A stretch of DNA of 34,114 nt from an uncultured bacterium (lineage in GTDB: Bacteria > Cyanobacteriota > Vampirovibrionia > Gastranaerophilales > Gastranaerophilaceae): contig CAIPUE010000012.1 of NCBI GenBank assembly GCA_903868125.1, positions 1-34,114 of the forward strand, written 5' to 3'. The notes under the pieces were generated by a model. That model was not told the origin of the DNA. It saw only the letters and a program-made list of their open reading frames with translations, and did not search any database. Positions within the stretch are counted from its first letter, which is position 1, and each line of letters opens with the position of its first letter. Position numbers and translations under genes: made by a program. Positions 13,228 to 33,004 of this stretch are shown here, piece by piece.

Positions 13228-14050
13228 GCAAGTAAAAAGGGGAAAGCAAAAAGCAAACAAAACCCACAAAGCCGTTCACCGTTTACCGTTTACCGTTTAC
13301 CCGTCCTCTCATCTCTCACCTCTCACCTCTCACCAATTACAACGTTACAATCGAAACATGCTTATTGAACAAATCGGCGAGGAGGGGCAAAAAAAGCTTT
13401 CTCAGGCGAAAGTGCTTGTTTGTGGTGCGGGCGGGCTTGGCTCAACAGTTTTGACATCTCTTGCAAGTGTCGGAATCGGCACAATCGGGATTGTTGATAA
13501 TGATGTCTTGGAACTGTCAAATTTGAACCGTCAATATATCCATAAATTTGAAAACATAGGGAAAATCAAGGTCGAAAGTGCTAAAAAATGGATAAACGAA
13601 TTTAATCCTGAAATTGTTGTAAATACTTATCAAATAAGGCTGGATGAAAATAATTATCAAGATATCGTGAAAGATTACGATTTGATTATGGATTGTTTCG
13701 ATAGCTTTAAATCAAAATTTTTGTTAAATAAAATCGCGATAGAAACCGGAAAAACGTTAATCCATGGCGGGGTAACAGAATTTTTCGGACAGGTTACAAC
13801 GATTATTCCTCACAAAACTGCTTGCTTGAACTGCATTTTGCCGCAAGAAGATGCTTATGTTATTAAAGGGGTCTTGAGTCCTGCGGTTTCTGTAATTGCC
13901 TCAATCGAAACGATGGAAGCGGTCAAGGTAATTTTAAATATAGGCGAAAGGCTTGAGAATAAGTTTTTGAGCTATGACGGATTAAATATGAAATTTAAAA
14001 CGATTAACCTTGCAAGAAATCCCGATTGCATTTTGTGTTCTGAGAAATAA
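13214..14050 (+). CDS. ThiF/MoeB/HesA-family E1-like adenylyltransferase
   Basis: E1-like enzymes adenylate the C-terminal glycine of ubiquitin-like sulfur carriers (ThiS, MoaD, TtuB) for thiamine, molybdopterin or tRNA thiolation. Visible are the conserved entry RYNRNMLIEQIGEEGQ (44-59), the ATP loop GAGGLG (71-76), NLNRQYIH, and two zinc CxxC pairs (CLNC and CILC). No extra catalytic cysteine or rhodanese domain is seen, so it is MoeB-like in build. I start at the ATG at 13214 because GGAGGG lies 7 bases upstream and the gene then overlaps mnmA by 14 bases. Residues 7-40 are encoded by repeat DNA inserted between MTSIEQ and the conserved core. The overlap with mnmA suggests a link to sulfur transfer; molybdopterin or thiamine roles remain possible. 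Confidence 0.8.
   Translation: MTSIEQVKRGKQKANKTHKAVHRLPFTVYPSSHLSPLTSHQLQRYNRNMLIEQIGEEGQKKLSQAKVLVCGAGGLGSTVLTSLASVGIGTIGIVDNDVLELSNLNRQYIHKFENIGKIKVESAKKWINEFNPEIVVNTYQIRLDENNYQDIVKDYDLIMDCFDSFKSKFLLNKIAIETGKTLIHGGVTEFFGQVTTIIPHKTACLNCILPQEDAYVIKGVLSPAVSVIASIETMEAVKVILNIGERLENKFLSYDGLNMKFKTINLARNPDCILCSEK
13232..13333 (+). repeat. 102-bp in-frame repeat insertion in the E1-like gene
   Basis: The segment holds an A/G-rich block like those at 32800 and 21318 (AAGTAAAAAGGGGAAAG), four heptamers GTTYACC (13274-13301) and four heptamers TCTCAYC (13307-13334). CAA flanks both sides (13229-13231 and 13334-13336), compatible with a 3-base duplication. The length is 34 codons, without a stop, so the reading frame survives. 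Confidence 0.7.
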
Positions 14051-27998: not shown

Positions 27999-28967
27999 TT
28001 ATGAAATTTTTGCAGGAGTCAATTCCCACAAGCTAGAATAGCTTTTAACGCTTTTATGATAAGTGTTTGAACTAGGAGTTGCCTTTTTACTTAATATTTT
28101 ATTTCTTTGATTATTCCAAAGATATAACAACACATCAGTATCACTCATATCAGGCATTTTATTTTTCAAAGCTGGGAGTTCATTTTTGGAGAGACTATTA
28201 AGTAGGGTCATGGTTGCTATAGCTGATTTGTCAGGGATTGATAAGTTATCTGCATTGATACTATATTTAGCTAAAAGTGCGTTGACTTGGGGATCTTTAT
28301 TATTACTATTTAATTTAATTTGGGTTAAACCTCTAGAATTTGAGGGCTTTTCTCCTTTTATAAGTTTAATGGCAGAAACAAGCAAATTACAATTTTCTTT
28401 AATCTTATATTTAATTCCTGCACCATATTCAGTTTCTTGTCCTGCAATTCCGAGTGATAAACGCGCTAGTTCGTCATAAGTTTTATTATCTATTTGTAAA
28501 TCTTTCATTAGTTTAGCTTTATTTGAAACAAGGCTATTTGCAAATTGAACTCCTTCTCTAGTCATATTTTTATTGTTAGTTTTTATCTTAAGGGGAGTTG
28601 GTTCAAAAGCCTGCCTTTGTTTTTTAAAGTCAGCCGGAAGAATTAAAATATATTCTCCTGATTGAACATGATTTGCCAAATTATTTATACTGTCATTACT
28701 ATGCCTTATGCATCCGCCTGACACATTTCGACTTAAAGACCCTGACATATTTGTGCCATGAAAAAACTCTCCGGTGGTAGTTTTTTGACCAGTTTGTGCG
28801 TTAACCATTACATTTGTAATCACTTTAGATCCGTAAGCTTCTGGATTGGCCTTCCGTCTTGTTCCGTTAGCACCGCTGTATGGATATTCTTCTATTCCTG
28901 TAATTTGTCTTATGCCTGCATTAGTGGGCGATTCTTCTTTGCCAACTGCATTTTTAAACGATTTCAA
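27999..28967 (-). CDS. C-terminal part of a nonsense-split LysM / L,D-transpeptidase
   Basis: This holds a YkuD domain with H70, the HGT motif and SGGCIRH (nucleophile C86, R88), the L,D-transpeptidase signature, followed by a lysozyme-like region (about 150-300) with GIAGQETEYGAG and SRGLTQIKL, resembling the catalytic-glutamate and substrate-cleft motifs of lytic transglycosylases. A TTG at 28967 is the only plausible start, without a good ribosome site. The reading frame upstream continues in frame for six codons to a TAA and then into the LysM part at 28986-29480, and the beginning of the YkuD fold (DNHLTYL, then DKDGKFLKSF) straddles the stop. One TAT/TAC to TAA change would explain this. 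It is thus a probable pseudogene fragment, unless reinitiation or readthrough occurs. Confidence 0.7.
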   Translation of the reverse strand: MKSFKNAVGKEESPTNAGIRQITGIEEYPYSGANGTRRKANPEAYGSKVITNVMVNAQTGQKTTTGEFFHGTNMSGSLSRNVSGGCIRHSNDSINNLANHVQSGEYILILPADFKKQRQAFEPTPLKIKTNNKNMTREGVQFANSLVSNKAKLMKDLQIDNKTYDELARLSLGIAGQETEYGAGIKYKIKENCNLLVSAIKLIKGEKPSNSRGLTQIKLNSNNKDPQVNALLAKYSINADNLSIPDKSAIATMTLLNSLSKNELPALKNKMPDMSDTDVLLYLWNNQRNKILSKKATPSSNTYHKSVKSYSSLWELTPAKIS

Positions 28968-28985
28968 AAATTTACCGTCTTTATC

Positions 28986-29480
28986 TTACAAATACGTTAA
29001 ATGATTATCTTGTGATACGACAGCTTTCGCTAATTTAGAAGTATTTTTTATTGTAATGATAGGTTGTGGGGCATTATTTTTAGTATTATAATCCCGAACT
29101 TCTTGTGAAAGTAGACGCAAATTAGCAACTTTTGGCTCCGTTGCTAATCCTCCAAAAGATGTTTTAACTAGCTTGGAAGGTTGGGGCAATACTTGTTTGA
29201 GATTATTGGTAGATATTGTCATGTTATCAGTGGGCGCTTCTTCGATTGCTTGAATGGAATCACTTTTGGTCTTTATTGAATTCCCAAGATTAGAAAATTT
29301 GGCACTGTTAAATTTTGAAACTGAATCATAACCATTTATTTGGGCTAATCTGTCCATTTCTTTTACAATATCAGCATTCGTGGGTTTTTGCCCATCCAGT
29401 GATAAATTTCTTTTAGCAACTTTCCATGCACAATCGCCAATTTGAATCTTGTAGGAAAGATTAATAGTCTCTTTAGGCAT
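28986..29480 (-). CDS. N-terminal part of a nonsense-split LysM / L,D-transpeptidase
   Basis: A 164-residue product with an N-terminal LysM-like domain (about 9-60: YKIQIGDCAWKVAKR, then GYDSVS and NLG) that should bind peptidoglycan, then a polar, asparagine/serine-rich linker, then the first strand of the YkuD domain (about 150-164). The TAA after LTYL cuts the domain; the rest of the enzyme follows in the same frame (27999-28967). The full-length form would be about 493 residues. AGAGGAT precedes the ATG. No signal peptide is visible, which is odd for a wall enzyme and is shared by the next gene upstream. Confidence 0.7.
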   Translation of the reverse strand: MPKETINLSYKIQIGDCAWKVAKRNLSLDGQKPTNADIVKEMDRLAQINGYDSVSKFNSAKFSNLGNSIKTKSDSIQAIEEAPTDNMTISTNNLKQVLPQPSKLVKTSFGGLATEPKVANLRLLSQEVRDYNTKNNAPQPIITIKNTSKLAKAVVSQDNHLTYL

Positions 29481-29639
29481 TTTAAATATCCTCTTGTCTT
29501 TATACTCTTACTCATAGAATATAGCTTATATATATAAAGGGTATACACAATAAAAAATTGCCTTTTTTTAAAAAAACTTAACACTTGCCATCGTCAGAAA
29601 TTCAATGATGTGGCTCAAAAGATGCTCATAAAATTTATT

Positions 29640-30917
29640 TTATTTGAACGATTTTATTATTCCGCTTGCAAGCCCTTGAGCTATTTTACTTTGGTATGTA
29701 GGATTAAGAAGATTTTTTCTGTCTTTCGGATTAGACATATAACCAGTTTCTACAAGTGCAGAGGCAACATAAATATTATCCAAAACATTAGAATCTGTTA
29801 TTACTGCAAAATTATTTTCAATAACATTATTATTTTTTGCCTTACTTGAAGTTATTGTATGCGTAGTCGCTAATAATTCTCCTTGAAGTCTTTGAGCAAA
29901 TATTTTATTTTTGATTGCTAACTGTGTACTCCAATTTTTGTTATTTCTATATCTCGAATTAGTATTTAGGGTGTTTTCATCTTTGATTAAATCATTATAA
30001 TTTTTTAATTTATCCGCAGAAATTGTTCGAGGAAGTGTTTTTTTCCAACTTGCAAAATCTTTATTTGAAAAGAAGTAAGTTTCTACCCCATGGGTCGATG
30101 TCCCATTTTCCGAATTACAATGAATACTCAAGAATAAATTAGGTCTTATTGTGTCCTTAGCCCTTACTCTTTTATGCGTATCATTTTCACCGACCAAGCT
30201 GGGAATTTGATAACCTTGAGCAGCTAAATCTTTTTCGATATTTCGTTCGGTTCCAAGTCTTGTATAAACTACTTTATAGCCCTTATTTTTGAGAATTAGA
30301 CCTAATTTTTGGGCCAATTTAAGATTGATATCTTTTTCCGCAATTACTTTGCCTGATTCATGTGCAACCGCACCTGAATCATTTCCTCCATGTCCGGGAT
30401 CAAGCATTATAACCCCTTTATACGGCGTTCTAATATCTTTAGATGTACGACTTGCGACAGATATTTCATTTTTATGCGGTGGGGAAATTTGTGTGATATT
30501 TTTATCCAATTTAAGATGCTGCCCAACAAAAATTTTACTTGAATTTTTAATATGGTTATCAGACACAATTTTATTTACTTTTGCGGTAATGACTTTGATA
30601 TCGGTAATTTGATAACGTTTGCGGACAATATTAAATAAACTTTTGTCATTCTGCATTACCACATAAAGTTCTTTGTCGGAATTCGCCAATTGCTTAGTCG
30701 ATAAAGCACTGGATGTTACAGCTAAGTCATTATCCAACTTAAGAATTTGCCCTACAAAAATTGTACCTGACTTATTAAGGTGGTTATTAGCCTGAATTTG
30801 ATGCACTTTTTTATTAATAGCTTCTTCATCGCCAAGACGGTACTTTTTTCGAACAATCCCAAACAAATTCTCTTTTGGCATGACTGTATAAGATGTTATA
30901 TTGACTTTATCTGCCAT
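29640..30917 (-). CDS. LysM-domain N-acetylmuramoyl-L-alanine amidase (Amidase_3)
   Basis: A 425-residue zinc amidase that would cut the bond between muramic acid and the peptide stem. Two LysM-like repeats (about 9-62 and 83-137), each ending in FVGQ-x-LKLD, are followed by an Amidase_3 domain with DPGHGG (173-178, zinc ligand H176), E194 in AEKDINL, SIHCN near 266 and the catalytic VETGYMSN near 395. LysM units are longer than usual (about 53 residues). No signal peptide or transmembrane helix is present, so export by a non-Sec route, or release by lysis, must be considered. TAGGAG precedes the ATG. It lies 159 bases upstream of the transpeptidase gene on the same strand. Confidence 0.88.
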   Translation of the reverse strand: MADKVNITSYTVMPKENLFGIVRKKYRLGDEEAINKKVHQIQANNHLNKSGTIFVGQILKLDNDLAVTSSALSTKQLANSDKELYVVMQNDKSLFNIVRKRYQITDIKVITAKVNKIVSDNHIKNSSKIFVGQHLKLDKNITQISPPHKNEISVASRTSKDIRTPYKGVIMLDPGHGGNDSGAVAHESGKVIAEKDINLKLAQKLGLILKNKGYKVVYTRLGTERNIEKDLAAQGYQIPSLVGENDTHKRVRAKDTIRPNLFLSIHCNSENGTSTHGVETYFFSNKDFASWKKTLPRTISADKLKNYNDLIKDENTLNTNSRYRNNKNWSTQLAIKNKIFAQRLQGELLATTHTITSSKAKNNNVIENNFAVITDSNVLDNIYVASALVETGYMSNPKDRKNLLNPTYQSKIAQGLASGIIKSFK

Positions 30918-32796: not shown

Positions 32797-33004
32797 CAGG
32801 AAGTAAAAAGGGAAAAGTAAAAAGAGGTACGGAGGAGAAGAGGTATAGATGTATGGCTTTTTGGTAAACGGTAAACAGTAAACGGGTTTGCAGTTTTCGC
32901 TTACTTTTCCTTTCCTTTCGGGGCTTATTGACGGTGGGATAGCAATCCCACCCTACTTTGACGACCTCGGGCTTGTTGCCGCCGTTTACCGTTTACCGTT
33001 TACT
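32797..33004. repeat. Composite repeat: A/G block, inverted heptamer arrays and a palindrome
   Basis: In order: AAGTAAAAAGGGAAAAG block (from 32800), a segment with AGATGTATGG, three heptamers (32863-32883), palindrome GGTGGGAT-AGCA-ATCCCACC (32933-32952) followed by CTAC, and three heptamers in inverted orientation (32984-33004). The two heptamer arrays form arms of about 20 bp around 100 bp, a MITE-like build. It fills most of the 447-base gap between the TPR and GT9 genes; 32624-32796 holds only the TPR leader. Confidence 0.65.

Follow-up and report, generated by a model that had tools for sequence, protein, structure and literature searches.

A single in-frame stop in a putative two-enzyme cell-wall protein gene of an uncultured Gastranaerophilaceae bacterium

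Among described proteins, the YkuD L,D-transpeptidases (PF03734) are close to the gene considered here; their catalytic motif we take to be a His together with Ser-x-Gly-Cys. The gene lies in a stretch of 34,114 nucleotides from an uncultured member of the Gastranaerophilaceae (hereafter the window). Its frame resembles these enzymes in scoring above the Pfam cut-off and in carrying the His and Ser-Gly-Gly-Cys motif behind a LysM-like part. It differs from them in that the assembled chain ends within the domain, and in that the protein lacks a hydrophobic N-terminal stretch and is fused to a third domain. The lytic transglycosylases (MltC, MltE, MltF and Slt) and goose-type lysozyme are the top structural matches of this third domain, in which an invariant Glu is a candidate for a catalytic role. 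In contrast to this structural likeness, identity to these enzymes is 9–17% in the first 36 rows of the comparison and the third domain has no Pfam match. Also close are proteins which combine YkuD with the same C-terminal domain, namely relatives of the window's own family and at least one Bdellovibrio record (L082). They have the C-terminal domain in common with the window protein, whose gene differs from theirs by its stop and by a YkuD domain of another clade. We found no paper on this fused architecture in the Gastranaerophilales and Bdellovibrio literature, which is not proof of absence, and no family name for such proteins.

Genes with a single in-frame stop are a known kind. Single nonsense alleles are ordinary in assembled genomes, and an interrupted gene as such matters little. 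More interesting is the fusion itself, with its remote relatives: transpeptidase-like and predicted lysozyme-fold domains are joined in intact relatives from an uncultured gut lineage, and also in one or more Bdellovibrio records.

The frame, on the minus strand, runs from an ATG at 29480 to a TAA at 27999, and its sole in-frame stop is the TAA at 28986–28988 (codon 165). The original prediction was right about the coordinates and the total of 493 codons, about the stop and the frame continuing past it, and about the HGT and SGGC motifs; the strand was absent from it and the third domain (residues about 302–489) had been missed. Judged from sequence and structural models, the best reading of the interrupted gene is that of a putative two-enzyme cell-wall protein, composed of a LysM-like part, a YkuD L,D-transpeptidase-like domain and a predicted lytic-transglycosylase-like domain. 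Its features are the following.

27999..29480, minus strand: whole interrupted gene, 493 codons before the final stop, with the TAA codon 165 among them
29489..29494, minus strand: AGAGGA, the ribosome-binding-like site of the interrupted gene, read from the sequence
29301..29453, minus strand: LysM-like stretch (residues 10–60) that no Pfam family matches directly; it aligns by BLASTP (E 1e-7) with a Pfam LysM protein of genome G021
29028..29258, minus strand: low-confidence linker (residues 75–151), model pLDDT under 50
28653..29024, minus strand: YkuD (L,D-transpeptidase) domain (residues 153–276, Pfam), with the stop inside it
28986..28988, minus strand: in-frame TAA, codon 165, at the end of predicted YkuD strand 2; sense in 38/38 distinct covering relatives
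28965..28967, minus strand: TTG at codon 172, the earliest place for a restart; no ribosome-binding-like site precedes it and it falls within predicted strand 3
28758..28760, minus strand: His241 of the HGT motif, invariant in 13/13 rows
28710..28712, minus strand: Cys257 of SGGC, invariant in 13/13 rows
28014..28577, minus strand: third domain (residues about 302–489), predicted lysozyme-like (lytic-transglycosylase-like) fold, from alignment and model
28434..28436, minus strand: Glu349, candidate catalytic acid, invariant in 21/21 rows

A chance open reading frame behind the stop was rejected, since 328 open codons have a probability of about 1e-11 in random bases at the local GC content of 33.7%. 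The hexamer coding score is 0.51–0.52 behind the stop versus 0.32 before it, the former value being partly circular because that ORF is long enough to enter the training set. A promoter scan returned 2 sites versus 3.4 expected, and terminator-like sites on the plus strand number 2 versus 0.5 expected. A search of PHROGs yielded weak matches only (best 5.5e-4). Pfam LysM does not match residues 1–164 at E up to 1; the LysM-bearing protein found by BLASTP belongs to another genome of the window's family.

With a Pfam cut-off of 23.4 bits, the YkuD match reaches 49.4 bits when the stop is read through and 41 bits when only the sequence behind it is taken, and a PDB sequence search gave one match in the YkuD region (7o21, E 8.5e-05). 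It had been claimed that the LysM part ends at the TAA. This does not hold: the LysM-like stretch covers about residues 10–60 and is followed by the linker, and the stop falls within YkuD, which by Pfam starts at residue 153, 12 codons ahead of it. In the model of the read-through frame, which is of moderate confidence (mean pLDDT 65, about 56–60 around the stop), the first YkuD strands are predicted at residues 152–156, 161–165 and 171–179, so that the stop would coincide with the last codon of strand 2 and the TTG codon would fall within strand 3. The active-site residues H241, S254, G256 and C257 are kept and are invariant in 13 rows. As written, the translation ends after 164 residues, inside YkuD, and reaches neither the catalytic His and Cys nor the third domain; no single translated chain holds the whole YkuD domain.

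Relatives were compared at the column of the stop. A first search of the genome contigs with a single protein query found none. Many matches show internal stops; that the relatives share such a stop was rejected, since within the matches of 52 re-aligned loci stops occur solely at positions 282 and 283, which lie beyond YkuD. The stop column is covered by 39 of the 52 loci, which represent 38 distinct genes (L011 and L030 are one gene): 37 carry one and the same residue, one carries another aromatic and none a stop. In the 13-row alignment the codon is likewise sense in 12/12 relatives. The seven aligned relatives of the window's family have the same domain order and no internal stop, one of them being cut at a contig end. 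The congener G001 has an open gene of 513 aa at the same place, adjoining dacB. Thus intact relatives with a sense codon at the site, the mark of a nonsense pseudogene, are present throughout the 38 genes. The window's species and G001 are the two species of the genus compared and, at 36% identity in the enzyme protein, are too distant for dN/dS.

Because there is one TAA in 493 codons, at a site which is sense in all 38 relatives, and because the active-site residues are kept, we favour, with reasonable though not strong confidence, the reading that the stop is a real and recent nonsense allele of the two-enzyme wall protein. Translation would then give a LysM-like protein of 164 residues with two YkuD strands and no active site, presumably devoid of enzyme activity. 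The allele is probably young, and the loss of the enzyme may be tolerable thanks to a second, open YkuD gene in the same genome (C17, 228 aa, with a hydrophobic start), where no other YkuD was found. The original prediction had offered a recent mutation or a functional stop. The first half is favoured by the lack of a second stop, the kept active site and the sense codons of the relatives; the second finds none of the 38 relatives sharing the stop. A functional split or readthrough is unlikely.

A possible but rather doubtful alternative is that the stop arose as an artefact in assembly or consensus calling, or reflects a minority-strain base in a metagenome bin, and that the real population has an intact gene. 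By their titles, the named records of relatives come from metagenome assemblies or uncultured isolates, and the window's genome, in 60 contigs, is probably of the same origin; the sense codons of the relatives and the preserved active-site residues would also be expected of an intact gene. Against an artefact, the lesion keeps the frame and lies outside a homopolymer, and this is not typical of assembly errors. How common such interruptions are was surveyed in the window and in twelve 20-kb pieces of its genome (240 kb), 274 kb in all. Among 138 same-frame ORF pairs, 17 score as coding on both sides. Thirteen of these read as tandem genes, the criteria being the start codon and the ribosome-binding-like site alone: in 11 an ATG follows within 14 codons and in 2 a GTG or TTG stands behind a GGAGG- or AGGAG-like site. 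Three are short, on the plus strand and taken as noise (L097 15113 and L098 6022 are among them). The sole remaining pair is the window gene, in which the next start, a TTG, follows 6 codons on and has no ribosome-binding-like site. A generally error-ridden assembly was rejected on this basis, with one unexplained interruption among the 17 candidate pairs. The survey bears on the artefact in both directions: that no second unexplained interruption occurs in 274 kb is in its favour, and that the surveyed stretches hold no other such error speaks against it.

The same data bear on readthrough of the TAA, by a suppressor tRNA or by recoding, which would yield the full protein at some rate. TAA terminates 108/163 of the long coding ORFs sampled in the genome, so that a changed genetic code was rejected and the codon is not reassigned. 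Furthermore, the stop is common to none of the 38 relatives, the 274-kb survey holds no second such gene, and the window, the sole stretch checked for a suppressor tRNA, contains 0 tRNA genes. Some weight is nevertheless left to this alternative, which we regard as highly improbable, because one study argues that in-frame stops within bacterial genes are often read through, with dN/dS below 1 around TAA, TAG and TGA (PMC7918605).

A further alternative is a functional stop in a split gene, with translation restarting at the TTG at 28967, or at the ATG at 28565 before the third domain to give a separate enzyme. The downstream frame is open with its key residues kept, the TTG does sit 18 bases past the stop, as had been pointed out, and the ATG (codon 306) would yield nearly the whole third domain. 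Reinitiation at the TTG had been proposed to supply the catalytic part. This proposal is not supported: codon 172 falls within predicted strand 3, so that according to the model the product would lose predicted YkuD strands 1 and 2, and neither the TTG nor the ATG is preceded by a ribosome-binding-like site, in contrast to the first ATG of the gene with its AGAGGA. Together with the 0/38 distinct covering relatives that have the stop, these observations make a split gene very unlikely.

The third domain aligns with the C-terminal domain of the window-family proteins and with that of 12 further records, assigned to Bdellovibrio, Bdellovibrionales, Bdellovibrionaceae, Bacteriovoracales, Bacteriovoracaceae, Halobacteriovoraceae or Oligoflexia (L073, L075–L079, L081, L082 and L085–L088); these names we group as Bdellovibrionota. 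The alignment of 21 rows has 18 invariant columns, Glu349 and the constant letters of an NSxGxTQ motif among them. No family of the lytic-transglycosylase or lysozyme kind is found among the 12 Pfam families matched by 8 members at E up to 1. The domain is modelled with a mean pLDDT of 91.4. A Foldseek search with it was weak (best MltC, E 0.16). In VIA-align, the first 36 of 50 rows are MltC, MltF, Slt, MltE, goose-type lysozymes, one chitinase and the muramidase Tse3, with Z of 7.8 to 9.9, a range in which matches may be due to chance for helical models (Z under about 13). The best of them is MltC (Z 9.9, rmsd 3.4 over 142 residues). Because the structural rows agree on one superfamily, we read the third domain as having a predicted lysozyme fold, similar to that of lytic transglycosylases, with an activity that would be of this kind.

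Whether the two halves of the protein have decayed was approached by counting conserved columns. In the third domain (residues 317–475) the window protein keeps 36/41 columns fixed in seven other full-length rows; when the other rows are left out in turn, 36/36 to 36/42 columns are kept, and the window protein thus lies within their range. In the part of YkuD behind the stop it keeps 11/24 fixed columns and, ahead of the stop, 4/16, a smaller share than in any other of the 8 rows. We attribute the YkuD value to this domain belonging to a different clade, but decay in this part is hard to judge. In a tree of 30 YkuD rows, where branches are long and many inner forks weak and from which two Bdellovibrionota rows were dropped for want of the motif, the window's domain groups with stand-alone domains of the HGT/HGN type. 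A split of 100/100 separates it from a clade of 11 rows. These are eight third-domain relatives (L004, L005, L011, L034–L037 and L072, which include the same-place counterpart of the congener), two LysM-YkuD proteins and the second YkuD of the window's own genome. The window YkuD is 26% identical to that of G001 and 36–43% identical to four stand-alone proteins compared, whereas the C-terminal domain is 50% identical to that of G001. From this contrast and the placement in the tree, the window protein looks like a domain chimera with an apparent swap of YkuD, the active-site residues being intact.

The absence of a second stop dates the mutation only weakly. A substitution behind codon 165 makes a stop in 5.35% of cases, and a second stop would become 95% likely only after about 54 substitutions, or 5.5% of the 984 bases there. 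The earlier statement that no other lesion is seen is correct as far as a second stop is concerned; it is poor evidence of age.

The start of the protein sets the window's family apart from its distant relatives. The six Bdellovibrionota-type relatives checked begin with a hydrophobic stretch, whereas the window's family does not; among the three Bdellovibrio-type proteins scanned, L082 alone has a Pfam YkuD. A hydrophobic N-terminal stretch is lacking in the window protein (27999–29480, minus strand), in the neighbouring LysM-amidase (29640–30917, minus strand) and in L004, L005, L011, L035, L036, L037 and L072. The fused proteins on the gut side have no signal-peptide-like start, and their catalytic domains have apparently been exchanged.

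Around the gene, the flanking DNA of the two species (G000 and G001) is 90–93% identical where aligned, up to the end of dacB, versus 36% for the enzyme protein. Upstream of the start of the enzyme gene, G001 carries the dacB 3′ end a second time, together with a piece of the adjacent amidase gene that has an internal deletion (L033 9376–9441 and 9447–9585). They lie near a contig end, so that an assembly fault is possible at this duplication. If the arrangement is real, the place has been rearranged, which would fit a dispensable and shuffled locus. A third domain set free by a weak restart at ATG 28565, beside the 164-residue LysM-like protein, would be a natural step in domain shuffling at such a locus, an idea to which we attach only the slightest probability. 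Elsewhere in the window, two segments (32921–33003 and 13271–13340) match the non-syntenic start of L033 (2–84 and 62–133) with 89% and 74% identity and are perhaps copies of a dispersed repeat.
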